A stretch of 64,000 nucleotides of DNA from Panopea generosa (Eukaryota > Mollusca > Bivalvia > Adapedonta > Hiatellidae): assembly GCA_029582155.1 (NCBI GenBank), contig CM055903.1, forward strand, positions 45,213,769 to 45,277,768. The letters run 5' to 3'. The translations under genes and the position numbers were made by a program. Positions within the stretch are counted from its first letter, which is position 1. The number at the start of each line of letters is the position of its first letter. Of this stretch, positions 2,336 through 61,575 are shown in pieces. The notes under the pieces are model-generated. The model was not told the origin of the DNA, did no database searches, and saw only the letters and a list, made by a program, of their open reading frames with translations.

Positions 2336-2338
2336 ATG

Positions 2339-2640
2339 TTGTATGGTGTTAAGTGTTCCTTTCAAAATTGTTTCAGTCATATCGAGATGGTGTCTACTTG
2401 AATCAGACAATATTCTAAGCGTTGTCACACTGAAATATCATGTCACAGACATATGGTATGATACCCAATCAGTCACATGATACTGACAACAGGTCGACCA
2501 TACTTATTCTCTAAGTGATGAGCACCAAGTGAGGAAGATTCTAGTACCATTTTTAATCTTTGGTGTGACCCGACAGGGGATCGATCCCATGACCTATCAC
2601 ATGCGAAGCAGAAGATCTATCACTAGAATACCACTTATAT
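2339..2640 (-). mobile_element. tRNA-derived SINE, family B (old copy)
   Basis: On the minus strand the head at about 2570-2640 is tRNA-like (tagtgatagatcttctgct, then a B-box-like gggatcgatcccc region). It is followed by a roughly 230-bp body ending in 'acaccatacaa'. The body matches the much better preserved copy at 28104-28419 along its length, including 'tactgacaacaggtcgacca' against 'tactgacaccgggccgacca'. RNA polymerase III driven retroposon; no coding capacity. Confidence 0.72.
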
Positions 2641-8668: not shown

Positions 8669-9555
8669 AAATAGAAACCCTCCAGAACATCTGGCTATAG
8701 GATTGCTCAGGGGAAGGTATTCTAACAACATTATCAGGCATGGTACTAAAAATGATACTACTATACTAAATTGTGTCTATTATCACTGTTACATTGGGCA
8801 TATATTCACATTCCTTGCATAATTCCGATGAGCAGGGCGTAACCTTTATCACTACTCAGAATTCATTTAGGCAGGGCATTATCACTACCCAGAATCCTAA
8901 TTTTGATAACAGCGCCGGACAAGGGTTAATGGCATGGGGGGAAAAGTGTGCATGTGGAAGTTGATAATGGGTGAACAGTGCCTTGTAGTGACAATACAAG
9001 CTGTACTCTAGGTGCAATAATGAACAAAAACATAAAAAGGTATCGTAAGGTCTCCTGTATATTCCAAAAAGTAACATCATAAGTCTGAGTAGAACCTTTC
9101 AGGGGAAATTGGTTAACTTTAATAAATTGTATGTATATAGCTTGACTTGAACCAACAACTTCACATATGACAGGTACCTGATCTTTAACATGGAAGTGCT
9201 CTCAGTAATGGAGGGTTGCGCTCTGGTATCAAAATAAAACAAGTGGGACATGTGTACGCTGTGCTCCTTCTTACTCGCTCAAAATTGCAGCTACTTAAAC
9301 ATTTTATTGCCTCTCAAAGTGTTAACTTTTTATTTTTTCATGATATCTGTCCATTTTTCTTTAAAATACTGAGTCGAGACACAGCAATCAAACATTCTTT
9401 TAGGATGACCTAGCCAACTATGGCAAAATAGCTTGGTCAATCTTGATGATAACAAACAATTGTATTGGTACACATGGTGCGTCGGCATATTATAGTAGTT
9501 GATATAATAGTTATAAAACTTTAATTAATGAGAACTGATTTAAATGCATTCTTTT
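8669..9555. other. No gene seen
   Basis: Two short related phrases, 'gggcgtaacctttatcactactcagaatt' (about 8836) and 'gggcattatcactacccagaatc' (about 8875), form a small tandem duplication. No coding or RNA gene signal. Confidence 0.4.
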
Positions 9556-9560
9556 TTTTT

Positions 9561-9783
9561 AATCGGGTTTAACGCCATTTAACATATTTCAGGTTATATA
9601 TGGCTTATCCAGTTTTGCTGGTGGAGGAAGACCTCAGACTGAGTACAACTACTGTCCTTCCGCAAGTAACTGGAAACTTTCTCACATACAGTTTTTGGAG
9701 CGGGATTCAAACCTACGACATTAGCGGTGAGAAGTAAGTGATCTTGAGAAATCGCCTTATACCACTCGACCACAGAGGACCCT
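9561..9783 (-). mobile_element. tRNA-Ser/Leu-derived SINE, family C
   Basis: On the minus strand the head is class-II-tRNA-like ('tgtggtcgagtggtataaggc', B-box 'aggtttgaatccc'). It is followed by 'cttgcggaaggacag', 'gaggtcttcctcca' and 'aaaactggataagcc', and ends 'ggcgttaaaccc' before a run of A. This intact 3' end is the reference for interpreting the LINE junctions at 29.7 and 36.4 kb. Confidence 0.82.
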
Positions 9784-22789: not shown

Positions 22790-24870
22790 AGCTCACATGA
22801 GCCAAAGGCTCACAGGTGAGCTTTTGTGATCGCCTGGTGTCCGTCGTTTGTCGTCCGTCGGCCGTCGTCTATCGTCCGTCGTTATCTTCTAACAACTTCT
22901 CCTCTGAAACCACTGGGCCAATTTTTAAATAACTTCACAGAAATGTGTTGAAGTTTGTTCAAGTCATCTTGATTCGTCAGAATACATGGCTGCCAGGGGG
23001 CGGGGCAAGTTTAATTAGTAAAAACTTAAAAGATCTTCTTGTCAGAAACTACTGGCTCGATTTTAAAATAATTTCACAGAAATGTTCCTTGGAGGACCCT
23101 TCACCAAGTTTGTTCAAACTGTAGTGATTTGTCTAAAACATGGCGGCCAGAAAAATTTTGATATAACTTCACAGAAATGTTCCTTCGGTGACCCTCTACC
23201 AAGTTTGTTCAAGTCATCTTGATTTGTCAAAAAACATGGCCACCAGGGGTCGGGGTTAGTTTAATTAGTAAAAACTTAAAGAATCTTCTTGTCAGAAGCT
23301 ACTTGCGTGATTTTAAAACAAATTAAAGAAATGTTCCTTGGGTGACCATCTACCAAGTTTGTTCAAACCGTAGTGATTCGTAAAAAACATAGCGGCCAGG
23401 GGTGGGGTTAGTTTACTATATAAGATATAGTAAAAACTTAAAAAATCTTCTTGTCAGAAACCACTGGGCCAATTTTGATATACATTCACAGAAATGTTCC
23501 TTTGGTGACCCTCTACCAAGTTTGTTCAAGCCATCTTGATTCGTCAAAAAACATGGCCACCAGGGGGCGTGGCAAGTTTAATTAGTAAAAACTTTAAAAG
23601 AAATCTTCTTGTCAGAACCTACTGGCTCGATTTTAAAATAATTTCACAGATATGTTCCTTGGAGGACCCTTCACCAAGTTTGTTTAAACCGTAGTGATTC
23701 GTCAAAAAACATGGCGGCGAAGGGGTGGGGATAGTTTACGATATAAGCTATAGTAAAAATATAAAAAATCTTCTTGTCAGAAACCACTAAGCCAATTTTG
23801 ATATAACTTCACAGAAATGTTCCTTTGGTGACCCTCTATCAAGTTTGTTCAAGCCATCTAGGTTCGTCAAAAAACATGGCCGCCAGGGGGCGCGTGGCAA
23901 GTTTAATTAGTAAAAACTTAAAAAATCTTCCTGTCAGAAACTACTGGCTCGATTTTAAAATAATTTCACAGAAATGTTCCTTGGATGACACTTCACCAAG
24001 TTTGTTCAACCCGTAGTGATTTGTCTAAAACATGGCGGCCAGGGGTTGGGGATAGTTTACAATATAAGCTATAGTAAAAACTTAAAAAATCTCCTGATCA
24101 GAAACTACTGGCTCGATTTTAAAATAATTTCACTGAAATGTTCCTTGGGTGACCCTCTACCAAGTTTGTTCAAGCCATCTTGATTCGTCATAAAACATGG
24201 CCGATATGGGGCAGGGCAAGTTTGATAAGTAAAAACTTAAAAAATCTTCTTGTCAGAAACTACTGGCTCGATTTAAAATAAACTTACAGAAATATTCCTT
24301 GGAGGACCTTTCACCTAGCTTGTTCAAACCGTAGTGATTCGGCAAAAATCATGGCCGCCAGGTGTGGGGTTAGTTTACTATATAAGCTATAGTAAAAATT
24401 TAAAAAATCCTCTTGTCAGAAACAATTGGCTCGATTTTAAAATAACATCATAGAAATGTTACTTGGGTGACCCCTCACCAAGTATGTTCAAACCGTAGTG
24501 ATTCTTCAAAAAATGTGGTGGCCAGGGGGTGGGGTTAATTTACTATATAAGCTATAGTAAAAACATAAAAAATCTTCTTGTCAGAAACCACTGGGCCAAT
24601 TTTGATATAACTTCACAGAAATGTTCCTTCGGTGACCCTCTACCAAGTTTGTTCAAGTCATCTTGATTTGTCAAAAATGATGGCCACCAGGGGTCGGGGT
24701 AAGTTTAATTAGTAAAAACTTAAAAAAATATTCTTGTCAGAAGCTACTTGCGTGATTTTCAAACAAATTAAAGGAATGTTCCTTGGAGGACCCTCTACCA
24801 AGTTTGTTCAAACCGTAGTGATTCGTAAAAAAACATAGCGGTCAGGGGTCGGGGTTAGTTTACTATATAA
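22790..24870. mobile_element. Hairpin-headed element with dimeric ~160-bp tandem array
   Basis: The left end is a hairpin (agctcac-a-tgagcc / ggctca-cag-gtgagct, 22790-22822). It is followed by a 'ccgtcgtttgtcgtccgtcgg' patch and about 13 tandem units marked by 'cagaaac(t/c)ac...tcacagaaatgttcctt...caagtttgttcaa'. Unit starts are near 23291, 23453, 23611, 23777, 23932, 24097, 24252, 24415, 24578 and 24737. Two unit types alternate ('gtagtgattcg...ataagctatag' and 'catcttgattcg...aagtttaattag'), giving a ~320-bp dimer. Tandem-cored non-coding elements of about 160 bp, including the 'pearl' type related to Helitrons, are known in bivalves. Membership is inferred. Confidence 0.7.
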
Positions 24871-25082
24871 GATCTCTCATCAAAGACCTTTCTCTGGATT
24901 TTCGAGCTAAATCTGAGTCTAATCAATAAAGTGTATATTTGCATTTTTTGCAGTGGAAAAAGTCTGCTTATTACGATTTCTAACGGAAAGACATCGTTCG
25001 TTACTAGTACATGTTGAAAAAAACGTCATTCACAATCGATGTAAAATAAATTTGAAAGAGATTTTTTATTTGAATTGGGTTT

Positions 25083-28103: not shown

Positions 28104-28419
28104 TTTGTTGTTGTATGGTGTTTAACGTCACTTTCAACAATTGTTCAGTCATATCGCGACGGGGTCTACTTGAGACAGTATTCTGAGCGCTGTCACACTG
28201 GAGTATCAAGCCGCAGACACATGGTATGTGTACCCCACCCAGTCACATTATACTGACACCGGGCCGACCAGACCTAGAACTCTCCTCTAAATGCTGAGCG
28301 TCAAGCGAGGAAGCTTTTAGTACTATTTTTAAAGTCTTTGGTATGACCCGGCCGGGGATTGAACCCACGACCTTCCGCATGCGAGGCGGACGCTCTACCA
28401 CTAGACCACGCCGCGGTCT
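28104..28419 (-). mobile_element. tRNA-derived SINE, family B (well preserved)
   Basis: The minus strand starts 'gaccgcggcgtggtctagtg gtagagcgtccgcctcgcat', with good A-box, an anticodon arm ccgc/gcgg around ctcgcat (CGC, alanine-like) and B-box 'gtgggttcaatccccggcc'. It has a ~230-bp body ending 'cgttaaacaccatacaaca'. The body is shared with 2339-2640. Being much better preserved, it is the younger of the two. Confidence 0.82.
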
Positions 28420-28730
28420 CTCAATGATGAGACCAAGTAAAAAGTCGATTACCTCAGTCAAGGTGGGCAGAGTTGAAGGAATGGGCCCGTATCATACAGT
28501 CATGTGTGATAATGTAAGTTATATTTCATTTTGCCAATCTTGCGGTTGTGAGTGACTGGATGTCAAATTACGTAACTGATATGACTGCAATAAATTACCT
28601 TTTATGAAACATCTGAAGTTTAGGGTGCTGGACCTTTTTTTCTCGACTGGAGCCGCTTGAGCATGCGTTGCTGTCGTGAATAGTGGTGACACATTATTTA
28701 CACAATAACAAAGCAATTGTATTGGTTACA
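28420..28730. other. Left flank of the LINE block, nothing recognisable
   Basis: Mixed sequence without supported genes. The last bases, ending 'attggttaca', show no evident duplication with the right flank after 36437. Confidence 0.45.
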
Positions 28731-28806
28731 GTCACGGCTCTCTTGGCACACGTTCTACTTACTTGCTTATACTTTCGTTTATTTCCCAGAGATCATTTGG
28801 GGGGAT

Positions 28807-28998
28807 TTACCGCCATACACCAGGATATTCATGCAGAATCAGCGTAGTTGCTGCAGACGACAAAATACATAATACAATAGAGATAATAGTGAATATTTCC
28901 TTGTAATTAAAGAGCAGCCGCGGTACAATGTTAACACGTTTATAGCACGTAGATGCGGATGTACTTGATAAATGCGTAGGACATACTTGACAAGACAT
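28807..28998 (-). other. Possible small first exon with signal anchor (duplicated in both repeats)
   Basis: On the minus strand an ATG-initiated frame of about 63 codons contains KEIFTIISIVLCILSSAATT, a good hydrophobic signal or anchor segment. It then reads EYPGVWR and runs straight into 'gtaaatcc', a plausible splice donor at about 28809. The same frame is intact at 35517-35708. Nothing downstream on the minus strand could be recognised as its next exon, so this is only a possibility. Confidence 0.22.
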
Positions 28999-29530
28999 GT
29001 TTACTTCATCGCATTGTTAGACCTTTCCCAGCAGTCTATATAGATGGCATGGATAAATATTACAGTATACAAACACACTGTTTCATAACCATTCAAACGA
29101 TATACATTTATACCATGACAGTATTTAGTATATACATGTAAATAAAGAGCCAATCGCCTACTCTAGATTTTATCACATGACCTTACAATAATTAGAAGCT
29201 TATATTTTATATTGTACAATTCGAAATTTAAGATGGCGATTTAAATAAAACGAATACACTTAATAGAAATTTCAATGATACAAACGAATAACCGACAACA
29301 TGTCGCGCATTTATATGCGGATGAAATTTCTTGTTTAAGGACATTATTTATCGTGAATATTGATATATCTACCATGTCGGTACCAGCACGTTTAATTATG
29401 TTTACTTTCAGGTTTCCTCAACTTACCAGAGTCATTAAATTCAATACGATTTCCTTTACTTATTGGAGTGATAGAGTTCGTTCTATACGGTCGTCAGTTT
29501 GCGTTGTCAGGAAATCAACTTAATTAATAA

Positions 29531-29727
29531 TCGATGTCCGAGTGGTCTAAGGCTCCGTCTCAAAGTCACTTACCTCACACGCTTAGGTTGTAGGTTCGAG
29601 TCAAAAACTTTTTTGTGAGTAAGTTATTTGCGGAAGGACAGAGGTTGTATTCAAATTCATTCTGAGGTCTTCCTCCATCAAGAAAACTGGAAATGCCATA
29701 TACAAACTAAAATGTGTAGATTTTGGC
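29531..29727 (+). mobile_element. SINE family C, 3' end replaced by the LINE
   Basis: The head 'gatgtccgagtggtctaagg' and B-box-like 'aggttcgagtc' are followed by 'tttgcggaaggacagaggtt', 'gaggtcttcctccatc' and 'aaaactggaaatgccatata'. The order is that of the copy at 9561-9783. The natural end (ggcg(g/t)taaaccc) is missing here because the LINE-side sequence begins after 'ggc' at 29727. Confidence 0.82.
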
Positions 29728-29774
29728 AAGAAAACTGGAAATGCCATATACAAACTAAAATGTGTAGATTTTGG
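29680..29774 (+). repeat. 48-bp tandem duplication at the LINE 5' junction
   Basis: The SINE tail segment 'aagaaaactggaaatgccat' through 'agattttgg' occurs at 29680-29727 and again at 29728-29774. It occurs once in the right-hand repeat. The second copy runs into the start of ORF1. Confidence 0.93.
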
Positions 29775-29782
29775 ACTTTTGT

Positions 29783-31180
29783 ATGATAAAAGACCTTATC
29801 AGCACGTCGAAGAAAAACAACAGGAGATTTTCTGTCGTGGCAACACCGCCGGCACCAGTTGCGACAAATAAGTGCCATTGCAAGGTGGAAATCAACCAAT
29901 TAAAAGAAACAGTGTCGTCACTTCAAGCAGACGTGCTACTGATCAAACAGAGACATACAGCGTCAGAAAACATACATTGTGACGATATGAAGTCGGTATC
30001 AAACTCTATTGTGGAGCTAAAGTCTGATGTAACCATAAAACAAGACACTTTGCAGAAATGTATGGACCAATTTAAAACGTGTTTTTCTTCATTTCAAACA
30101 ACTATACTGAATAATGTACAGTCATGTAACAGTAATATACATAAAAATGCATGCTATGTAGAACAAGTGCAGGACAATTTACTGAGTGTTTCTTTCGCAT
30201 TAGCTCACTTAAAAGCATGTGTAGAAGAAATTAATACGAAGCTAGGATTACCCCATACGGACAGAGAAACTGATGCCACGACTTTAACCCCAAAATCTCC
30301 CATTAATACTCGGACTGATATCGCTGCCTCCGACGTAGGTACACTTATTGATATGCTTCAGACGACAAGCACCCCTCCTGATAGTCACATTTACACAGCC
30401 AAGCCCATTTATCCAAAAGTTATAACAGACGACATGGAAACCGACTCCTCCTTCGGGGGTCTACCCATCCCACGCATTATAACGACACGAAAGCCCAACA
30501 CCACAAATACTCTAAAAAAGAAATCGGTCTCCTTTACTGACATTAATAAAAAACTAAAATATGACACGGACCGGGCCGTATCTCCGAGACGTTCAAATCC
30601 CAAGAACATTTTAACGCTACCAGTCAACCAAAACACTAGGTTCGGGACTAAACAAAGTAGTCCCAGCGTAGCAGTAACATCTCCGGACGGAACATATGTG
30701 TCACATGTGTCGACAAATAAACCCTCCGGATTTGATGATGATGATGATGATTTTACACAGTATGTGCGACGTCGCACAAAGCGCTTTTATGTAGGTGGTT
30801 TCCGACCAACGATAACTGAAGCCAAAATAGCAAATTTTGTTCGGGACAAGGGACCGACTGTAACAAAAATTTCTATATTTCGAAATAAGAAATATAGGAC
30901 CACAGTTGTTCGCCTTAATGTTGAAGACGACAACAACGCTGACCTACTTAACAGTGACCCATATTTCTGGCCCAGGGGGATAACATGTAGACCTTGGTTA
31001 TCTTACAACTATTACAAAAACCGCAGTGTTGGTGATACTTCCAATCACAAATCGCTCACAAATGAAAATCACGAATACCCGAATGACTCGTGGAATCATG
31101 TTAACAGGCGTGATCGATACAATCATGCTAATTACCATGATTATAATCCGTATTGTTCATTAGACGTTGACGTCGAATAG
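29783..31180 (+). CDS. LINE ORF1 protein (coiled coil plus RRM-like C-terminal region)
   Basis: 465 codons from the first ATG at 29783; a TTG 12 bases earlier is in frame but has no support. Residues about 30-155 are heptad-rich (QLKETVSSLQADVLLIKQRH, SIVELKSDVTIKQDTLQKCM) and likely form a trimerising coiled coil. A basic Ser/Thr/Pro-rich linker follows, then an acidic DDDDDD run. Next is KRFYVGGFRPTITEAKIANF, FVRDKGPTVTKISIFRNKKY and a region ending FWPRGITCRPW, which has the pattern of an RNA-recognition fold. The tail is rich in Asn, His and Tyr. Such ORF1 proteins bind LINE RNA and form the retrotransposition particle. The frame is intact, and ORF2 starts 14 bases after its stop in a different frame. 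Confidence 0.85.
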   Translation: MIKDLISTSKKNNRRFSVVATPPAPVATNKCHCKVEINQLKETVSSLQADVLLIKQRHTASENIHCDDMKSVSNSIVELKSDVTIKQDTLQKCMDQFKTCFSSFQTTILNNVQSCNSNIHKNACYVEQVQDNLLSVSFALAHLKACVEEINTKLGLPHTDRETDATTLTPKSPINTRTDIAASDVGTLIDMLQTTSTPPDSHIYTAKPIYPKVITDDMETDSSFGGLPIPRIITTRKPNTTNTLKKKSVSFTDINKKLKYDTDRAVSPRRSNPKNILTLPVNQNTRFGTKQSSPSVAVTSPDGTYVSHVSTNKPSGFDDDDDDFTQYVRRRTKRFYVGGFRPTITEAKIANFVRDKGPTVTKISIFRNKKYRTTVVRLNVEDDNNADLLNSDPYFWPRGITCRPWLSYNYYKNRSVGDTSNHKSLTNENHEYPNDSWNHVNRRDRYNHANYHDYNPYCSLDVDVE

Positions 31181-31194
31181 AAATCTCGTAAACA

Positions 31195-34100
31195 ATGAAA
31201 GTGTTCTCAGATACAGGTAAACTTAATATTGCTACATGGAATGCAACAGGCATTATGTCTAGTGCTAGCTATCTGGCTGACTTTCTAAATAAATATAAAA
31301 TAGATGTTTGTGGAATATCAGAACACTGGCTCTTTAGAAAAGATCTCCGCTTTTTGGATAGTATAAACACTGACTACAGTAGTTATGCTTTATCTGACCC
31401 TGATCTAGACATCGTATCGGGTAGAAAAGTCGGTAAAGGTGGTCTCGCTTTATTATGGCATAGAGATTTGAACCCTATTGTGACCCCTTTAGACCTTAAC
31501 TGTGATACTTTTATTGGCATTCAAATCATGACAGCTCCCGGTCGTTACACATATATAGTTCAAGTATACTTGCCATGTAAAAACCACCCTATGCGGTTGT
31601 ATAATCAATACCTTGAAGAATTAGAAAATATCATTTGTACATATCAAGATAAGGGTTCTCTGTTTGTTATAGGTGATTACAATACTGAACTTAAATCTAA
31701 ACGCATAGCAACAAACTTTAATTTAGATTCAAGAGGTAAATTACTATTACAGCTTACAAACAAATTTGATCTTAAATCAGTTAATACACTTGCCTTATGC
31801 AGAGGATCGAAGTTCAGTAATGTTCCCTATAACAGTGACAGAGAAACACTTATAGATCATATTTTTGTGCAGGAGCTGCTATTACCAAATATTACTGACT
31901 GTCAAATATTTGATGACAATGCATTGAATGTATCCACACACCGCCCCATTGTTTGCACGTATTCTGTAAAAACTGTTACAGAAACGGAAACATTAAATAC
32001 CCGTATTATAAACTGGCGAAATGTGAAAAAGGTACAGTTAGATTCTTATAAACAATTCTTAGAAAATAGTGATGTGTTAAAATGCGCAAAAAAACTTGAT
32101 ATATGTGATACTAGAGAAATTGACGATTTGTACTCGGCCATTGTGCTAATAGTTAACCTAGCAACAGACTTATATATTCCAAAGGTACGTTTTAAACCAT
32201 ACATAAAACCATATTGGAATAACGAACTGACGTACCTACATAATGAAATGAAAGCAAAACGCTGCACATGGTTAAACGAAAATAAGCCAAATGACACCAA
32301 TTCACTTTCATATCAAAATTATAAAAAGTCAAAATGTTCTTTTCGACGTTTCCACAGAGAAGCAGTGTTAATGTTTTTAGAGAGCCAGGATGCAGAAATT
32401 GATTCTGCAGCAGAATGTGACAACAATGAATTCTGGAAGCTTATAAATAATCGTCGGAACAAAAAGTCATATGCCTCGGGTTTCGAAATGAATTTTAACG
32501 GTACTATCCTAAAAGAGCCGAAGCTAATTAACACGGGTTGGAAAAACTATTTTAGTGAGCTTTACTCACCTAGTCAAGACGCATCATTCAATCCAACTTA
32601 CAAATCGGAAGTGGAATGCGAACTTACTAAGCTAAAAGAAAATTTATCTCATAAATATGGTAGACAACATATTATTGACGAGAAAATGACTTTAAATGCA
32701 TTGAGTAACTGTAAAAAACTTAAAGCCTGCGGGAACGATAAAGTATTTTACGAAAATATCATACATGGCGGTGTTTTACTGCAGCAGGTGATAATTAAAC
32801 TGTTTAACTGTATGCTTGCTTTTTCACATACGCCCGCAGAAATGAAAAAAGGTATAATTATAACACTATTTAAAGGCGGAAACAAAAAGAAAAATGACCC
32901 AAATAGCTATAGAGCCATCTCATTGTGTTCATGCATATTAAAACTTTATGAAAAAATCCTAATTCAGCTGATTGAAAAGGATGGAAAATTGAGCTTTAAT
33001 CCCTCGCAAGGAGGTTTTCAGAAAAATGTCAACTGTCTCATGACATCATATATGTTACGTGAATGTATAAACTATGCAGAGGAGAACAATTCACAAATCT
33101 ACACCTGTTTCTTAGACGCAAAACAAGCGTTCGATCGGGCATGGATTTCCCTGTTGCTACTTAAATTATTTAAAACTGGCATCGATATTTCACTTTTCAA
33201 GTCGATTGCATCATTTTTCGTAGAATGCTCTAGTTGTGTAAAGTCACAAGGCTATACATCGGACTGGTTCCCCATATTACAAGGAACCCGCAAGGGCCAG
33301 TGTCTTAGTCCCTACCTCTATCTCGTATTCATTAATCACCTGATGTACGAAATTGAAAAAAGTGAATATTGTTTTAAGATATATGATATACATTGTGGAT
33401 GTCCAACTTCAGCAGATGACATGGTAGTTATTTCAAACGTCAAACGCGGACTAGACAGCCTCCTCAAGTTGTGTTATGTGAATTCACAAAACGAACGATA
33501 CATATACAATGCCAGTAAATGCAAAGTCGTTGTTTTTAATGAAAAAGTGCACACACAACGCAAATGGAAACTAGGCAATGATGAAGTTGCAGAAACGGAT
33601 AGCTATCTACATCTAGGGGTACCATGTCACAAATCCCTATCATTAAATGAAAACATAAAAGAAAGTTGTACTAAATTAAGAAAAACATTTTTCAGTATTG
33701 CTGACTGTGGAATTTATAGAAATGGAGTACACGCCCTAACAGCAAAGCGTATATATGAATCGGTTGTTCTTCCCAAAGCACTATATGGGAGTGAACTGTG
33801 GAATGATCTCACAGACAATCAGTTATGTCCCCTAGAACGGGCTCATCGACAGTGCGTTAAGCGTATTCAAAATATACCGACAGGATCAAGAACAGATATT
33901 GCCTTAAGCTGTCTGGGTATTTACCCTATTAAACATATTATTGACAAGAGAAAAATTACTGTTACTTGGGCAATTGTGTCGGCTCAACTCAAAATTCAAA
34001 ATAAAACAAGTATTTTCCCGTAGACTTACATCATACTTTTCCATACCCTTAAAAATGAAAGGATTCATGCCTGATATATAGATATAGATTATTAGGTCGG

Positions 34101-34649
34101 TACAGCTTAACCAAGTATCTAACAGACTATTCAAAAACCGGAGAATTCCCTTCTCAAAATATATGGAAAAAATCGATAAAAATCGCAATCCATAAAACGG
34201 TAGAGTTTGACTGGAGAAACAGACTCTTATGCGACGCTACCTTAAGCCAATTTTTGCTTGTTCATTCAAAATACGAACCATGTACTCTGTGGAAATTTAG
34301 TCAAGAATTTAAAATATGCAAAATACAATGCTCTACAGCATTCATACTGTTTTCTAAATTCTTTTCTAAAAAATATGAAGAAATATGTAAAACTTGTAAC
34401 CTAGCAACTGAAAATATTGCACTTCATATAATTTTGTTTTGCAATCATAAAGACTATATACGGTCTAAGTTATGGGTTAACCTGTCACGATTGTTGGGCC
34501 CGGAAAATTATGCAAAATTGTGTGCTTATACACCGGAATTACAACTACTCGAAATGTTCAGTGGGTTTGTCTCCTTTAACATAGATGATAAAACTAGGGT
34601 GCAATGCTTCAAAACTTTCTTGAAGACGGTCCACAATATTATGACATAA
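31195..34649 (+). pseudogene. LINE ORF2: endonuclease and reverse transcriptase, frameshifted near the C-terminus
   Basis: Intact from ATG 31195 to a stop at 34021 (942 codons). Residues 1-235 form the APE-like endonuclease: NIATWNATGI, ISEHWL, IGDYNTE, DHIFVQ and STHRPI (usually SDH). The reverse transcriptase follows: NSYRAISLCSCILKLYEKIL, then FLDAKQAFDRAW near residue 639 with the first catalytic Asp. Next come QGTRKGQCLSPYLYLVFINH and SADDMVVIS near residue 739, carrying the Asp pair where Tyr or Phe normally precedes ADD. Two frame changes (near 34015-34021 and 34059-34080) separate the rest. The rest resumes with an open frame to 34649 containing CKTCNLATENIALHIILFC, a C-x2-C-x9-H-x4-C zinc-knuckle-like motif. 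Probably inactive as assembled. Confidence 0.87.
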
Positions 34650-34825
34650 TATGTATTAATTTCCTAGGATACAAGAGGATATAGAATGAAAATGAAATCA
34701 TGTAAACATAAATTGTTGCAAGGGTGCTGTAATTAACATATTCATTATTTGATATATATCTATATAATTATTGCATATGTGTTTTTACATGTATGTGTAT
34801 GTATTTGTGTGTATATACATTTATA

Positions 34826-34830
<5 letters not shown>

Positions 34831-34869
<39 letters not shown>

Positions 34870-34924
34870 CGCGTGTCTGTCTGTCTGTCTGTCTGTCTGT
34901 ATGTCTGTCTGTCTGTCTGTCTGT

Positions 34925-34959
<35 letters not shown>
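34831..34959 (+). repeat. Compound microsatellite in LINE 3' region
   Basis: (TG)15 at 34831-34860, then (GC)7, then (CTGT) about 13 with one TATG interruption, then (GGCT) about 8 to 34959. The overlapping frames here are low-complexity artefacts. Confidence 0.95.
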
Positions 34960-35440
34960 TCTGTGTGTCCGTGCGATCATGTGTGCGTGCGAACGAGAGA
35001 CTTGTGAGCTCATCTTAGTTGTCTTGATGTTTCGTTTCGATTAAGGCTGTCTAATATGATGTGCTTAGTATGTATTATCAATGTGAATTTTAATAAACAA
35101 TAAGACATGTAAATATGTTTCTCTAACAATATATAACTATGACTATTATCCTTATCATATATGTAAGTCAAATATGTTTGTGTTGTTGTTGTCATTAATG
35201 TAAATAGCTATCGTACAATCATTTCTTACCTGCTTCATTTTTCATATGGTCCTTAACTAGTTCTATATATGAAATCAACATGTTGAAATGAAAATACTGA
35301 TTGTTAGACAATATTGATATTGTAACTACATGTATTTATAAATCTTTTCAAATAATTGCCACTATATCATGTTTGCATAATATGTATTATCTCTTCATAT
35401 ATGGAGGAAATAAAGATTATATATATATATATATATATAA

Positions 35441-36437
35441 GTCACGGCTCTCTTGGCACACGTTCTACTTACTTGCTTATACTTTCGTTTATTTCCCAGA
35501 GATCATTTGGGGGGATTTACCGCCATACACCAGGATATTCATGCAGAATCAGCGTAGTTGCTGCAGACGACAAAATACATAATACAATAGAGATAATAGT
35601 GAATATTTCCTTGTAATTAAAGAGCAGCCGCGGTACAATGTTAACACGTTTATAGCACGTAGATGCGGATGTACTTGATAAATGCGTAGGACAAACTTGA
35701 CAAGACATGTTTACTTCATCGCATTGTTAGACCTTTCCCAGCAGTCTATATAGATGGCATGGATAAATATTACAGTATACAAACACACTGTTTCATAACC
35801 ATTCAAACGATATACATTTATACCATGACAGTATTTAGTATATACATGTAAATAAAGAGCCAATCGCCTACTCTAGATTTTACCACATGACCTTACAATA
35901 ATTAGAAGCTTATATTTTATATTGTACAATTCGAAATTTAAGATGGCGATTTAAATAAAACGAATACACTTAATAGAAATTTCAATGATACAAACGAATA
36001 ACCGACAACATGTCGCGCATTTATATGCGGATGAAATTTCTTGTTTAAGGACATTATTTATCGTGAATATTGATATATCTACCATGTCGGTACCAGCACG
36101 TTTAATTATGTTTACTTTCAGGTTTCCTCAACTTACCAGAGTCATTAAATTCAATACGATTTCCTTTACTTATTGGAGTGATAGAGTTCGTTCTATACGG
36201 TCGTCAGTTTGCGTTGTCAGGAAATCAACTTAATTAATAATCGATGTCCGAGTGGTCTAAGGCTCCGTCTCAAAGTCACTTACCTCACACGCTTAGGTTG
36301 TAGGTTCGAGTCAAAAACTTTTTTGTGAGTAAGTTATTTGCGGAAGGACAGAGGTTGTATTCAAATTCATTCTGAGGTCTTCCTCCATCAAGAAAACTGG
36401 AAATGCCATATACAAACTAAAATGTGTAGATTTTGGC
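35441..36437 (+). repeat. Right 997-bp direct repeat flanking the LINE
   Basis: Same sequence as 28731-29727 apart from two substitutions. It begins directly after the LINE's (AT)n tail, with the same first base ('gtcacggctc'). Confidence 0.97.
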
Positions 36438-36455
36438 GGTAAACCCCTTTCTAAA
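36241..36455 (+). mobile_element. SINE family C, complete including 3' end
   Basis: Same head and body as 29531-29727, but it continues past 36437 as 'ggcggtaaacccctttctaaaaa'. This matches the natural SINE end seen at 9561-9576 (ggcgttaaaccc plus A-run). It therefore looks like the empty, uninterrupted form of the site that the LINE occupies at 29727. Confidence 0.78.
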
Positions 36456-36758
36456 AATATAATAATCAACATATCAACTCACCATCCTCCGGGCAATGCG
36501 TGAGCACCTGGTATGCGCCGATCCTTCGGACAATGGTAGCATCTAGATGTCGGCTACCCAGTAGGAAGCGGTGCCACGGCTTATATGGATATGTAGTGGA
36601 GGGTTTATTTATATTTGTACATCTCCCCTGATATTAAGATCGTCTAAGCACAACAAAGTATGCCAGCTGGCCTGTGTGATCACGTGTTTCAACGACCATG
36701 CTGGTTATTGTGCTTGGGAGAAAGACTACCAGAGGTTGCCCACTGCACGGAGGATAAA
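36456..36758. other. No gene seen
   Basis: GC-richer than its surroundings but without a domain, tRNA or repeat that I recognise. Confidence 0.4.
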
Positions 36759-41100: not shown

Positions 41101-44100
41101 ACATAACTTCAGGCACACCGTGTACGTATAGTAACTTTAAATACTACAATTGCATGACTAGAATAATATTATTGGGCAAGAAATATTAAATAATTTAAAA
41201 ATCACCTGAAATGATTCCAGCTAAAATTTAAAATTTAGTGTTACCTATAGTTGAGATGATCTTATCAACGTTTCACATATGCTATATATGCACTACCTTC
41301 AAACCATATGGCAATATATCAGTTCTTGTCTTTATGAGTTTCCTAGATGATTTTGAACACACATTTGAAGCTTTTTTCATGTTCAATGAAAGGTTGATGA
41401 AATGCGTACCAATTCAAAACATTTAACACATTATTCAAAAGTGCCATAATTCTATCATAATGCAACCTAGAGTTATGGTTCTTGTGTCTGTGCGTTCTGT
41501 TGATGATGCTGAACACATATGTTAAGTTTCATTTAAATCCAATAAATGGTTGCCTGATATGAAGTATCTCCCATTTTACGCCTTAACCAGATTAAGGAGT
41601 TAAACATAGAAATATATATTTATATGAATTAAAGATACGAAAGGACATAACTCTCCTCAAACTGGTCAGAAAGTTCTCTCCTGGGTCCCAATAAACGTGT
41701 GTTTCTTTATTTGAACAAACTTGAAACGCCTACTCATCTACACCAAATATGAACAATTTTGGAAATAAAAGATATTTAGAAATTCACATTTTCACCGTGG
41801 GAATAGTATTACGATCGATGATTTTCCGTAACTTCAGGTTAGAAAAATGTTTATATCCTAATACTGAACCGATTTGCTTGTGACCAAGTGCAGATACTCC
41901 GCCTAATTGAATCAATTCTAACAGTGTGATCCGATTCCTTGAGATCTGCATAGTATGGAAGGAGAATGAATGAAAAGTGTTGTTTCACCGCAACTAATGG
42001 TGAGTTTATTGATTGATACATTTAGTTCTAAGTTCTAATAGATAACCGTCATTGCTTAGTGTTTCATTTTAAAATTTTGTTATAAAGAAAGCAAAAAATC
42101 GTTGTAAAGCTAACTGATATGGTGTACACCGAATATGCAGTAGAACGATACCGCGGGTCGTATTCACCAACCGTTCTTGAAAATTTTCTTAGACTTGAGC
42201 TTGAAAATTCAAATTTCAACCTGAGATATCTAATTTCCCATGACAGATAGAATAAATTTGAGAGTTTATTTGACTATATGTTAGGTGTCCCAATGTGCTT
42301 GCAAATTTTGACCTCAAACAATGGTCTCTAAGTGTGTTTTTCAAATTTCATTCTTGAGTTCAAGTCTTAGAATATTCTTACGAATGGTTGGTGAATACCA
42401 CCCCAGGCTTGTTATTATAAAGCGGTATAAGCGACAAAAGACGCTTACGAACATTTCTTGAAGTTTTATACATGTTTTATAACTCTTATCAAATTTTGAA
42501 TTATAAAATATGTACAGATATAATAAAAACCATAGCCGTAGCCCATGTATTTAATGAGAACATCAGTGACTAGAAATATTAATATAATTGATTATTGTCA
42601 TATTTAACTTGGGGACGAAATCATAACGGTATTAACTGGCCATTATACGTAAGAAATAACACAATAACAGGCAAATATATTTACTTAGCTTTTGTAGTAT
42701 CTTCCAGCACTGACTTTAAGAGGGCAGATACTGTTGTTAATGCAAATCCGTGCTTATATTCAATGTGTGTGCGTGATGACAATTAACATAATAAAGAAGG
42801 CCTATATCTGAAAAGTATTTTTTTTTTTTAATAAACCAAAACTTATACATGGTACTTACACCAATACTATAGACCTGTACTTATTTGTAAATCTTACTTG
42901 TAAAGCTTACTTGCAACGCTTACTTATAAAGCTTATTTGTAAAGCTTAATTGTAAATATTACTTGTAAAGCTTATTTGTAAAGCTTACTTATAAAGCTTA
43001 CTTGTAAAGTTTATTGTAAAGCTTAGTTGTAAAGCTAACTTGTAAAGCTTACTTGCAACACTAACTTATAAAGCTTATTTGTAAAGCTAACTTGTAAATA
43101 TTACTTGTAAAGCTTATTTGTAAAGCTTACTTATAAAGCTTACTTGTAAAGTTTATTTGTAAAGCTTATTTGTAAAGCTTACTTGTAAAACTTACTTGAA
43201 AAGCTTACTTGTAAAGTTTATTTGTAAAGCTTACTTGTAAAGCTTACTTGTAAAGGTTACCTATTAAGCTCAATTCCGTACCCATGTAATTATTAGTTCC
43301 GAATGAATAACTTTAAATAATATTTATAATTGAACGGTTGCTGCAAAATCGATATAGATCAGCAGTGTGCTTATAGTTTGGTAATTTAACACATCCTAAA
43401 TGAAAGCAACAGTATTTTAAGAATAGGGAAAAAAGTAGTTGTAGTTAAAGTAGTAATCTGCACATGGTCCATAAGCGTATCCGAAATATTGTGTTAGGGT
43501 TTCATAAAGTATATGCTAAGTATTCCTTCCGATTGTTTGAATAAAGATCGAACAAATGTTCTTTGTTTGTGTGACCAGGGCTTGTTTTTGGCCACATTAG
43601 GTATTTTAAATTAAGTTGAGAGCCTCCTGGTCACAAGTACTCTGGCGTGTGTAAAAAGATCTATAGTCCGTTTCAATTGTTTGTGTTGTGGTGTCAGTGT
43701 ATCTGTTTGTATACATGTATATTTTGCACGAAGTAATTGAGTGAATGAGTGAGCGATGAGTGAGCGATTTTATTGCATGATTGGTAAATATTGCATGATG
43801 GGTAAATTAACAATTTCCAATTCCCGCCAAACTAACTATCTAGGCACTTTCCTTCTGACAGTTGAACGATAAGGACATATAGAAAATCTTCACTTCACAG
43901 ATTTTCTAATATAAATATTTGTCTTGTTTCGCTACTTACTAAATAAGTCTGGTAAGCAATTATTTGTAATTTCATTCTCATTTAAAATCGTATTTGTATT
44001 ATGTAAAATGTGTGAATTATGTATCGCGTGAAATTGTTTGAAGTTTGTCGTAATCGTTGTTTTCATGTCTTGTAATTTTTGTATCGTACTGTGTCGTTGC

Positions 44101-47100
44101 AGATTTTTGTTTATAGTGTATTGATTGATTGAATATTTAGCGTCATTTTATGCCATCGAGGGCTAACAGACGATCAGTTAACCTAACCACTGTTTCCTGG
44201 GATTAACCAGTACTCAAGCACACCTCGTCTCCGCAAGTAACTGATAACTTTCCCACTTGAATCAGTGGTGAGAGACGAATGATAACGAGACGCAATGTCG
44301 TATATCAATCATCACGGAGACTGTTGCCGGGCGGGGGATTCGAACTCACGACCCCTGGATTGATAGTCAGACGCGTAACCGACTGAGCTAATCGGGCCCG
44401 GCTGTTTATAGTGTAAACAGCGTACATGTATAAGAATTGCATTAACCCCCCCTCCCCCCCCCCCCCCCTCCGACACACAAAAACAAAAACAAAAAAACCT
44501 CACCGATCTTAGTTCTTGATATAACCACCTTCTGTCACATTTGTTTGTTTTTTTGTGTTTTTTTTCAATTTAAAATAGTGTTAACGGGCACATGGAAAGG
44601 TTAGACAAATTCAATTACACAGTTTTAATAGAAGGGACAATGGGACAATTCCTCTAATATGGTGACTTTCTATTAACACTACACCAGAAATAAGAACATA
44701 TTCAAGAAAACGAGACAGACAAACAAAAGCTATACGGACGCAAAAAAACAGAAGACTGGACAAAATACAGACATTTTAGAAATAAGGTTAATAACTAAAA
44801 AAATATGCCAAGGAGCAATATTTTGGTAATATGGAAGAAATGATTGTAGACAGTAGTAAGACTAATCCTAAATTATATTGGAAATTACTTAAACAGTTAA
44901 TAAGAGCAAATAAAAATTGTGAAACTATTCCTCCATTGAAATATACATTAGATAACGACGAAGAAAAATACTATTTTGACGATATCGACAAAGCCAATAG
45001 TTTAAACAATTATTTTGTATCAATTTCATCAATAAGTCATGAGTAAAACAATACTTTACTACCAACTTGTTCTCTTAAAACAAACAATACTCTAACAAAT
45101 ATCAAGATAACTGAAAATGAAATTAAGGATATTATAGATACATTAAATCCCAACAAATCAGTTGGAGAAGATAAAATCAGTCATAAACTTTTAAAATTAA
45201 CAAAAAACTGTATTTCTAAACCACTGGTTATGCTTTATAATAAATCACTAGAAGAATGTAAATTTCCAGAGTTATGGAAACATAGTTTAATAATGCCACT
45301 ATTCAAAAAAGGAAATACGAATACATTGTCTAATTATAGGCCAATAACACTCTTAAGTTGTGTGGGTAAATTAATGGAAAGAGTTGTTTACAAACATATC
45401 TATAATTTTTTTGTTGCAAATAACTTGATATACAAGTTACAGTCAGGATTTTTAAAAGGTCACTCAACTGTTCATCAGTTAATCGACATCTACTATCAAG
45501 TTTGTCTGGGTATCGATGCAGGTCAATTTACATGCATGGTTTTCTGCGACGTTTCCAAAGCATTTGGTCGTGTGTGGATAAAAGGTGTTCTATTAAAGCT
45601 AAAACAGAACGGTGTTAACGGTGATATCCTAAAATGGGCGGAAAGTTATTTAATCGGACGTCAACAAAATGTCTTTGTAGGTTCAAGTTTGTCCGACAGT
45701 CAGGCAACATCTGCTGGAGTTCCTCAAGGTTCTGTCCTAGGGCCATTATTCTTTTTAATTTATATTAATGATATTGCCGAACATTTATTAAGTATTACTA
45801 GAATATTTGCCGATGATACATCTCTTGCATTCACGGCATGTAATATAACAGGTATTGAAGGCATTTTAAACCATGATCTAAGTATGATTTCAGATTGGTC
45901 AAAACAATGGTTGGTTAATTTTAACCCAAACAAAACAGAAGCAAAACTTATTTACTCTAAAAAAATATCATGTATCCTTCTTTGACTTTTAATATTCAAG
46001 TGTCAAGTTTGTAGATCATCATAAACATTTAAGACTCACATTAAGTAACGATGGGAAATGGCATGAACATATACAAAATATTTTACACTCTGCATCAAAG
46101 GTTTTAGGTATGATCAGAAAAATCAAGTTTACAGTTAACAGAACAGCTTTAAATCAAATTTATATGTCATTTCTTCGACCTATTCTAGAATATGGATCTG
46201 TAGTGTGGGGTGGGTGTACCCAATATGAAAAAGAAAATCTTGAAAAAATTCAACACGAAGCGGCTCGTATTATATCCGGTTTAACTCGGTCTACTTCTCT
46301 TCGTAACTTATACAAAGAACTAGGTTGGCTTTCTTTAGAAGAAAGAAGATTATACCAAAAATTAATTGTTGCTTATAAAGTAAAAAAAGGGTTAACTCCA
46401 GAATATTTAAACAATATTTTTCCTGAAACTGTAGGAATAACTACACCATATAATCTAAGAAATAATAGTAATTATTCTTTATTAAATACAAGAACACAAT
46501 TATTTAGAAATTCTTTTATTCCATCATGTATTTATTCTTGGAATAATCTTCCGGAACACTTACGCAATTCTGAAACTCTACCATCATTTAAACGCCAGCT
46601 TATGAATCATTTGTTTAAACCCACCAAAATACCATGTTTTTATTTAACAGGTCCTCGCAAATTATCTATTTTTTATGCACGTTTAAGAAATGGTTGCTGT
46701 AACCTTAATTATGATTTATTTGTCAACAAACTAAAATTATATTCAACTTGTGAAAAATGTGGGCATGAAAAAAAGGATGCCGAACACTATTTCATGCAAT
46801 GTCCTTCTTTTTTAAGCGATCGACTTCGTCTCTTTCATGCTACACGTCACCTTCATCCTTTAAGTGTTAAAACCCTGTTACACGGGAGAGATGATATTTC
46901 AGACGATGAAAATATTGCTGTATTTAAAAATGTCCAAACTTATATTAAAGACACTTAACGTTTTGATAAAGAATAGATCTTATTAATTTTAGTATTTACC
47001 TCACAATGGAGCCCCTCATTCAAGGTCAGCATCGGAAGCATATATTTAAACAATGTATCCTATTTCATTTTTTCTTCTTGCTTCATATATGAATATGTTT

Positions 47101-49836
47101 TACTGCTATCTTGATTGTTTTTTGTAAATAATTTGTTGTTGGGAAGGGCCGATTTTAACGTTGGATAACTTGTGGCCCAACCCTTTTGCTAGTACATGTA
47201 TATAAAAAAGCAATAAAATATGTTTAAAGTAACACTACACCGTTTCTTGATATACCGGATATTACGTGGATGAGCGTTTCCCGATCCTTTTTGCACTCAG
47301 TTCAGAGAAAGCTTAATGCCTATGACTAAACCATGTGCTGCTCAAAATCCGCAATTTCATTATATTGATTCGGTCTCTCGTGCAATCTCGTCACAAGTAT
47401 ACGTCACGAAACCTACTCTCGTTAATAATACGGAGAGTTATTTTTATTAGTGAATTTATTAAAATTACTTAATAATATTTTTTTTTTATATTTATGATTC
47501 GACGCTTCCGTGCAATTAATCAGCTGGAGCATATGTAGAGAATTTAATAGATATTTTTTTAACTACATCGCCGCTTTTGATATGTCTAAAAGCATGTCCA
47601 TATACACTATAAGCACATCCCCATGCGTTTATCATATATGATGTATTGACTGTATGGATATATTATATCAAATACACCTACAAATACTAAGGCCCGATTG
47701 GTCCAGGTAATCAAGAAACCTATGCATTTCTGGAGAGATCGGATCACCTTGTTAAAACTGACTCATTTAGACGAAGTATCTGCACACTGACGCATGTAAA
47801 TCGATCCAGTATTAAGGAAGATATTAATATTTCTTATACCTATTAAAAAAGTGACGGCAAATCGCCGAATTTGTGTGTGGGCCCTATCATAATTCAAAGT
47901 ACTTTAAAGTAATAATGAACGGGCGTTAATAAATATTAATACGCCTTCCTTAATTGATTAGTTGTATTGTACAGTTTGTAATACGCCTTCCTTAATTGAT
48001 TAGTTGTATTGTACAGTTTTGTTTATTTTATGCAACAGTGTTTCTTTAAAAATTACATAATACAATGTCCGCTATACATTTTTATTGTATGCTTTGTTTC
48101 TGCTTACTTATATTGAATACATGAAAAATGAAATTCGAGGAAATAAAAAGTAGTTCATATCGCGTATGATCATTTTGGCGGTGATTAACTCTGCAAAGCT
48201 TGATCACAGCGACATAGGCAGAGCTATTTCGGATGACTTGAGTTTAAAAAATATACACCCCTGCCCTACCCACTCCCATTGGAACCACCCCGGTTATGTA
48301 CTAATAGAAATAGTTTGTTATAATACAAGTTGTTGTCTGGATTGTAAATGACCTAATTGCTGTTGAATGTTTTGATAAAACGGTGTCATATAGTTTGGTT
48401 TTAGTGTTAGTGTTACCTGTAATAATCTTCACACAACCTCAATCATAACAATGGTACATATAAAGTACAATATACATGAATAAAAGAGCGACAACAGTGG
48501 TGGTTCCGAATTTGACCCTAGCGATCCGTATCCAAATAAATTCAGATGACCTTTATGCAAAACTACATCTTAACTATCTAAGATCTGGGCCTTGAAATTT
48601 CAGAGAAAACTTTTATTAAAATGTCGCTTAAAATGTGATTATAAGCCCTGTGGCGTGGGCTTCAATAGTGAACTCAGGCTGGTTCAAGAACTTGTCTGAA
48701 ATTTTCTGTTTTTTCAAAATATGTCAAGTGGTTAAGGAAATGGGGAGCGGACATAACATTCTTAACGTATTTCAAAACTTGAACCTCCAAGTGGTAGCAT
48801 TGACCTTTGAGCTACGGACCTGAGCCTATCGCAAGGCACATCGTCTGATTAAGGTGAATAATTGTGTCATGTTATTTCGAAATGTATGAAGTGTTTGACA
48901 AGATATGGAGCGGACTCATAATTTTGAAGATACTTCTGACCTTAACATCTAAGTGTAACCTTAACCTTTAAGTTACGGACCCAGGTCTTGAACGCAACAC
49001 AAGACCCATCGTCTGATTATGTTGAACGTTGTTACTATATTATTTTGAAATATGTCAAGTGGTTTACAGTATAATTATGGAGCGGACACGAAATTGTGTA
49101 CATATTATAAACTTTTAAACTCTAAGACTTCTAAGTATTACCTAGACCTTTAAGACAGGGTACTGCATACCGTCTATTCATGGTGAACTTTGAATTTTGT
49201 GCAAAGTTGTTAAAAAGTCCTTCAATTAATAAGAAATTGATAGCCCTGACAACATCGGACGCACGGACACACACCGAATCGCCATTGTGACGGCGGCTAT
49301 GTCGAGCTCACTGCAAGCCGGCTGGACAAAAATAAATATAAAGAAATAAACATCTAAATGATAATCTTTTGAAATACTATGGAAATCTGTGAGGCAGTCC
49401 GATTGTTTGAATTCACCAATCAAAAGCTTCATCAAGTCACAGATGATAAAAACTATATGTGTACACATTTTCGTTTTATTTCAGTTGCATACTAAACGTT
49501 TTGAATGTCATTCGCACATTCACTTCCGTTTTTGAAGGTCATAAAACAATATGATTTTTTCAAATATTGAAGGCACTTAGCCAGGGGAAAACGGGAAGTT
49601 CAACGTCAAGACTATCAGTGAGAAAGAAAGCAAACTTTTCAGTCACGATGATAGTATATTTTATATGGTGAAATATGTCGGAGAGAATATGTTACAAATA
49701 GTACTACTACCTTTGACTCCCTGCATCCGTTAAATAGGAATGAAAAGGGAATTTGTGTTTTTGTATTGAAACTATGTTTATAGAGTTTCAGAGAGTAGCA
49801 TGTGAAGTATTTTAAAATAAAAATCATTTTTCGATC

Positions 49837-60480: not shown

Positions 60481-61575
60481 TCGAGTAATTTCTAGCGCGG
60501 AGATTCTTTTTAAATTTTGCACACAAGTACTTTGAAGTAAGACAAGTTTAAAACACTAAAAAAAATATAGGTCCCCATGCTTGTTTTTTTGCTATGACTA
60601 TTTATAAACTACACCGTTTTACATTTTTTAAAGAAAAAAAACAGCAAATTGGTGTAAGTTATAAATCTTGTTTAATTTACTAACAAGGTGATATATTTCA
60701 ACAAAATATTGTTGTCACTCATGTAACAAAAGATAAAGTATCTAAAACAGAAAAAGTCATGATGCTCTTTTGAGTTTCACATTTCATACAGTAATTTTCA
60801 TAAATTTCTAGGATTATAGAATTGGCCGTTAACGATGTATTTTTACACTAATTTAAAAATAAAAAATGTTCTAACGCGGAGAATTGTTTCATTTTTTCTA
60901 CAAAGAGGCACCATAACAAACTTTATCAGAAAATAAAATAAAAAATATATGTCCCCATGCTTGTTACTAAGTTACAGTGCTTAATGTTACCTCCCTTTAC
61001 ATAAAATGGCCGTAAACTATGCATTTTAACACTAATTCAATTTAAATAAAAAAAAATTCTAATGCAGAGTATTGTTTCATTCTTTCTACAAAGAGGCACT
61101 TTAACAAACTTTATCAGAAAATAAAATAAAAAACATATGTTACCTTACTTGTTACTAACTTACATTGCTAAATATTACCTCCCTTTTTCATAAAATGGCC
61201 GCAAACGATGCATTTTTACACTAATTCAATAATAAAAAAAGTTGTAACGCCGAAAATTGTTTCATTCTTTCTACAAAGAGGCACTAAACCAAACTATATC
61301 AGAAAATAAAACAAAAAATATATGTCCCCATTCTTGTTACTAAGTTACAGAGCTAAATGTTACCTCCCTTTTCATAAAATGGCCGTAAATGATGCATTTT
61401 GACACTAATTCAATAATAAAAAAAGTTCTAATGTGGAGAATTGTTTCATTCTTTCTACAAAGAGGCATTATTACAAACTATATCAGAAAATAAAATAAAA
61501 AATACAGGTCACCTTGCTTGTTACCAAGCTACAGTGCTAAATGTTAACTTCCCTTTTCATAAAATGGCCTAAAAT
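60481..61575. repeat. ~186-bp tandem array, about five units
   Basis: 'tctacaaagaggca' at 60901, 61089, 61274 and 61458 (spacings 188, 185, 184), with an older unit near 60500-60720. Shared blocks are 'aaaatggccgtaaac(g/t)atgca', 'ggagaattgtttcatt', 'tatcagaaaataaaataaaa' and 'gttacctccctttt'. Non-coding. It directly abuts the preceding array. Confidence 0.88.

Follow-up and report, generated by a model that had tools for sequence, protein, structure and literature searches.

The locus and its features

The window, by which we mean the whole stretch of 64,000 nucleotides of Panopea generosa DNA that was analysed, contains a LINE lying between two long direct repeats. Alignment of 28731–29727 with 35441–36437 covers 997 bp with two substitutions (28984 T/35694 A and 29173 T/35883 C) and no indels, which bears out the description of the pair in the initial annotation. 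One further base is common to both copies, namely an A at 28730 and at 35440. This A may belong to the LINE tail, and the C at 29727 is a chance match, leaving 996 bp without it. The following features, all on the plus strand, make up the locus:

28731–29726, left-hand target copy of 996 bp (997 bp with the chance C at 29727)
29533–29726, SINE-like dispersed repeat of which the LINE leaves only the 5' part here (from alignment to related copies)
29727–29774, the final 48 bp of the target once more, without mismatch, next to the 5' end of the LINE
29774–35440, APE-type LINE, 5'-truncated inside ORF1
29774–31180, ORF1 without its N-terminal part, about 171 codons missing compared with four sister copies
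31192–34640, ORF2 with APE endonuclease, reverse transcriptase and C-terminal region, two frameshifts near 33957 and 34078
35409–35440, AATAAA signal followed by the (AT)n 3' tail of the family
35441–36437, right copy of the duplicated target
36243–36459, the same SINE-like repeat, complete, crossing the right end of the duplication

A 5'-truncated LINE of the APE type

ORF2 carries both an APE endonuclease and a reverse transcriptase (PF03372 and PF00078), and copies of the family have a common 3' end together with variable 5' truncation, as is found in APE-type non-LTR retrotransposons. Target duplications of 10–20 bp are usual for the non-LTR group without being strictly defining (PMC6895275), and the duplication here measures 996 bp. 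Of the proteins with solved structures, human L1 ORF2 gave the best match to the ORF2 profile (profile positions 3–817, E 9.1e-55) and counts only as the closest solved relative. The three best relatives of ORF2 have 1,152–1,163 aa, and in genome_contigs and viral_contigs no ORF2 relatives were found. L1-Tx1 elements are described as widespread in molluscs (PMC10294476).

Two lines of comparison showed that the LINE is truncated inside ORF1. Among nine aligned ORF1 relatives, the five with full coverage begin exactly at nt 29774 and leave 50–168 residues unmatched, while one of the other four begins at 29768 and three begin further inside; one ORF1 relative, P0068, is annotated in Mya arenaria. 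Searches with the N-terminal parts of the relatives gave nothing better than E 0.48 in the rest of the window. The one significant match, with P0065, was due to a query cut that extended into the shared part. In the same genome, sister copies with 98–99% identity extend upstream of the 5' end of the window LINE. Four of five fetched sisters reach a common 5' terminus about 770 bp further upstream, and the fifth runs along with them over 456 bp. The two-ORF LINE had initially been placed at 29728–35440, and its start has to be moved to about 29774, since 29727–29774 is the extra 48-bp copy. Both ORFs are present, with the correction that ORF1 is N-terminally truncated and that the frame of ORF2 is broken near 33957 and 34078.

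The repeat is local target DNA and not part of the element

The length of the pair is far outside what base composition yields, the longest exact repeats in five of five mononucleotide shuffles of the window being 15–17 bp. In a megablast comparison of the window plus 200 kb upstream (at least 100 bp, at least 95% identity, gap below 30 kb), the 997-bp pair was the sole non-tandem direct repeat listed. Genome-wide (1.474 Gb), full-length matches to the repeat were found only at its own two places among the matches listed (best 40 of 3,883 candidates). The other 41 matches listed in that comparison are partial, and 38 of these 41 cover the last ~190 bp, which are SINE-like; counts for such short parts are lower bounds, 40 of 3,883 first-look candidates having been scored, best first.

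Penelope-like elements with their pseudo-LTRs and LTR retrotransposons carry direct repeats around an element encoding reverse transcriptase, and in outline the locus resembles them. On this resemblance rested the proposal of a head-to-tail tandem in which the repeat would be the 5' UTR of the LINE. A check of the sequence at the sisters' ends, which the initial annotation had called for, was carried out: ORF1 N-terminal sequence lies upstream in all five fetched sisters and the 997-bp repeat was matched there in none, so that the repeat is not the LINE's 5' UTR. Together with the genome-wide result, in which no other full-length match was listed among the best 40 of 3,883 candidates, with the truncation inside ORF1 and with the continuation of the right copy into the SINE-like repeat, this refutes the proposal and leaves it with virtually no probability. 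An LTR retrotransposon was rejected on the first two of these counts, terminal repeats not being common to the copies, and a Penelope-like element was rejected as well, in that the endonuclease is of the APE type and the repeat, unlike the terminal repeats of either group, is not element sequence.

That the local DNA runs on into the right flank is shown by the SINE-like repeat, which crosses the right edge of the duplication. A related copy in the window (9548–9768, minus strand), bounded by a 13-bp direct repeat that was read by eye, aligns with the right repeat and past its edge to 36463. All six fetched copies, which represent about three independent insertions as judged by common flanks, likewise align past the right edge, to 36456–36482. 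In the left repeat the match to these copies overruns 29726 in three of six alignments, to 29732 or to 29771, in both cases into the extra 48-bp copy. Because the SINE-like repeat is unbroken in the right copy and cut in the left, the duplication ends on the right in native sequence and the SINE-like repeat has been interrupted by the LINE; on the left, the edge at 28730 was presumed to be native. These observations show that the direct repeat is local target DNA and not LINE sequence.

As to the SINE-like repeat itself, a candidate 8-bp target duplication of its own (TAATAATC at 36235 and 36460) was equalled in 254 of 5000 shuffles and is only weakly suggestive. By our own reading of A- and B-box-like stretches the repeat looks tRNA-derived, and neither ARAGORN nor Rfam called a tRNA in it.

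The (AT)n tract and the question of an assembly join

A further proposal was that the assembly had joined a LINE-free and a LINE-bearing haplotype in series, and the position of the junction at an (AT)n tract had made this a serious rival. Such an artefact would suit a large, nearly identical repeat in a presumably diploid animal, and an unmerged overlap could likewise account for the 48-bp tandem at the junction. The (AT)n tract itself no longer points to a join: 39 other LINE 3' ends were scored among 326 first-look candidates, with 97–100% identity, and all 39 match from query position 1 to 443–460 of 461 and end within the (AT)n tail, which is therefore the family's own 3' tail and not the mark of a join. 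The concern is weakened further by the recurrence of the same target–LINE–target anatomy at other loci, where a join would be needed at the LINE ends each time, at one of them (C25:1542829) within 5–8 nt of the true 5' terminus of the LINE. The 1.474-Gb assembly is made up of 39 contigs, and the 264 kb examined contain no N. Heterozygosity in bivalves is usually about 1% or more, and the 2 differences in 997 positions without indels fall below it. We therefore consider an assembly artefact improbable.

Target outcomes at sister insertions

In total 32 loci were scored for sister copies of the family (559 first-look candidates), of which 10 were left out of the duplication test as their matches were broken or split or they were not chosen. 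Sixteen 5'-truncated sister copies were picked before their flanks had been seen, and both flanks were fetched; of 20 short 3'-end stretches fetched, two were used (L041, L044). A repeat between the flanks of the same locus was counted at 90 bp or more and 95% identity. Long repeats of this kind were found at three of 16 sisters (four of 17 with the window locus), compared with none in 272 pairings of mismatched loci.

The three sister duplications differ in length. At C25:1542829 about 2,145 bp are duplicated (98.8% over the 407 columns seen) and both ends were located, the duplication lying 5–8 nt from the authentic 5' terminus of the LINE. At C6:73000210 the duplication measures about 1,696 bp (99.7% over 910), again with both ends located, and at C4:36658072 it measures about 336 bp, its right copy being broken by ~510 bp that presumably arrived later than the duplication. 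The four long duplications start with C/AGT in three cases and T/TACC in one. The A could equally belong to the LINE tail, and with four sites no motif can be claimed.

The remaining sisters had other outcomes, and large duplications are a minority among them. C14:66.49M carries a duplication of the ordinary length of 15 bp with one mismatch, C1:6.60M an ambiguous short duplication inside a tandem repeat, and 11 of 16 sisters are without a clear duplication. At C6:52.3M about 147 bp of target are apparently lost by comparison with one related repeat copy, on the assumption that this copy represents the empty site; at C6:83.7M the empty-site comparison gave no 5' match. For six of the 11 sisters without a clear duplication, the whole genome was searched with 861–871 bases of 3' flank (for four of the six, the best 40 of 108, 988, 330 and 1,293 candidates were scored), and among the matches listed no distant second copy was found that starts from the LINE end and lies upstream of the same LINE. 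C5:14.0M has partial matches of 76–89% on its own contig, both downstream and, on the opposite strand, 95 kb upstream, which do not begin at the flank start. The other five were tested within their 1.3-kb flanks. In the five copies reaching the 5' end of the window LINE, comparison of 100–150 nt of 3' flank with the upstream sequence gave nothing above chance. Kilobase-scale duplication is thus recurrent in this LINE family and not a one-off at the window locus.

The recurrence bears also on the reading that the LINE came later and inserted at the junction of a tandem or ectopic duplication that was already there and had nothing to do with it. Segmental duplications do exist, and at four loci the repeat edges coincide with the LINE ends, which makes this sequence of events very improbable. 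The explanation that accounts best for the locus, and which we hold with considerable confidence, is that a 5'-truncated LINE with an APE endonuclease inserted once and in doing so duplicated ~996 bp of target. The option of an exceptional target-site duplication of about 1 kb, which the initial annotation had put forward among several, is accordingly supported by the local origin of the repeat, the truncation of the LINE and three sisters with the same anatomy.

Proposed course of the insertion

We infer that the insertion may have proceeded by target-primed reverse transcription in which the end for the second strand was supplied by a distant, unrelated break. A nick made by the LINE endonuclease in the bottom strand, near 28730/28731, would prime reverse transcription, and the second end, on the top strand, would be supplied by a break ~1 kb further downstream that is unrelated to the nick and lies either in the same duplex or in a sister chromatid. 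Both sides would thereby retain the stretch between the two breaks. With the top-strand break downstream of the bottom-strand nick, the right copy is expected at the 3' end of the LINE and the left copy at its 5' end. The spacing at the loci compared, from an apparent −147 to +2,145 bp, speaks against a fixed distance for the cut that yields the second end.

A tentative version of this explanation, which we judge rather doubtful, is a LINE-bridged tandem duplication in which the cDNA would join breaks ~1 kb apart on sister chromatids. Such bridging has been proposed for L1 in human tumours (PMC7058536), and sizes between an apparent loss of ~147 bp and a gain of ~2.1 kb would suit unrelated breaks. 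The sequence fits the single-duplex version equally well, however, and among the matches listed for the six copies searched genome-wide no much larger duplication appeared.

Under the insertion by a distant second break, the 48-bp copy at the 5' junction is best read as the probable product of a template jump. Its right edge is the border of the LINE, and a later tandem duplication arising by chance would not be expected to end there. Where a sister LINE reads GAGGAC, the window reads TTTTGG/AC, with a 2-nt GG microhomology at the junction. The reverse transcriptase may have left its RNA early, jumped by means of the GG microhomology onto the free 3' end of the top strand and copied 48 nt of that end before being joined there. 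The 5' junctions of R2, which contain duplicated target bases, offer a precedent for the extra 48 bp (PMC2718515), although the authors of that paper favour annealing over template jumping for R2.

Relation to known systems and significance

Kilobase target duplications are known for engineered human L1, chiefly in repair-deficient cells; the present ones belong to a natural LINE family of an animal. In NER-deficient cells the target duplications of L1 spanned 5 bp to 5.3 kb with a median of 1,495 bp, whereas in complemented cells they spanned 2 bp to 1.6 kb with a median of 14 bp, and the authors proposed that insertion is completed by means of an unrelated nick lying more distally (PMC5223499). 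The same source gives duplications above 100 bp in HeLa cells as never exceeding 10% of L1 events, and three of 16 sisters are too few for claiming a rate above that of HeLa. For CSA-deficient cells, lengths between 1 bp and 29,902 bp are reported, with medians of 12–13 bp (PMC5717806). The present locus shares with the engineered L1 the kilobase target duplications that flank the LINE and differs from it in that these, frequent there upon loss of XPD, XPA or XPC in cultured human cells, are found here at natural insertions in another animal, with a different LINE and a 48-bp junction copy (PMC5223499).

Partial likenesses to other systems can also be drawn. As in L1-mediated duplications of human cancer, a LINE lies at the breakpoint of a direct duplication, but those are megabase-sized and somatic, whereas the duplications here measure 0.3–2.1 kb and are resolved in sequence (PMC7058536). 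In rotifers the element R9, also of the non-LTR type, makes a target duplication of unusual length as well, although it is specific to rDNA and is given a 126-bp stagger, in contrast to the variable lengths and dispersed sites seen here (cited in PMC6895275). R2 5' junctions also contain extra target sequence, and microhomology at truncated junctions; the extra piece here is 48 bp long and lies at the end of a ~1-kb duplication (PMC2718515). Among the literature matches listed in a search of limited reach, no natural kilobase LINE duplication was recognised.

It is possible, with a chance that we put just short of even, that cleavage of the second strand is uncoupled from that of the first in this LINE family or in the host germ line, such that a random distant break would be borrowed each time, no characteristic duplication length would exist, and recurrent host duplications of 0.3–2 kb as well as target deletions would result. 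How LINEs obtain their second cut is an old open question, and a natural family with at least 40 near-identical copies, a common 3' end and target outcomes between an apparent deletion and a 2.1-kb duplication supplies numerous junctions for testing the distant-break model that was put forward from repair-deficient human cells. LINE insertion makes small segmental duplications in an animal genome, in this case of ~800 bp together with most of a SINE-like repeat.

Rearranged sister copies of the LINE

In the whole genome assembly of the same animal (G000), the sister copy L052 (C25:1542780-1548402) carries a 5' internal deletion, in that a piece of ~40 nt from the LINE's authentic 5' end directly abuts LINE position ~114 in the window numbering. 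At a further sister copy, L073, an insertion of ~510 bp lies within the right copy of the ~336-bp target duplication (C4:36661439-36662282), and at C16:3756358-3764829 an insertion of ~2.9 kb apparently divides one LINE copy into two pieces.

Other repeats in the window

The dispersed repeat at 28109-28416, which includes a tRNA call, matches window 2337-2627 at 78%. Another reverse-transcriptase element with a broken frame, related only distantly to the LINE, occupies 44705-46958, and the window also contains three tandem arrays.

Features of the window
23155-24871, tandem array, unit 165/321 bp
28345-28416, minus strand, tRNA-Ala (CGC) call, inside the dispersed repeat
42880-43260, tandem array, unit 13 bp
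45047-45985, RVT_1 domain, in the second reverse-transcriptase element
45993-46958, zf-RVT domain, score under its cut-off, in the same element
60823-61573, tandem array, unit 184/373 bp

About 1 kb past the second reverse-transcriptase element, a perfect 42-bp tandem duplication is found at 47937-48019, which is alike in kind to the 48-bp tandem at the LINE junction.
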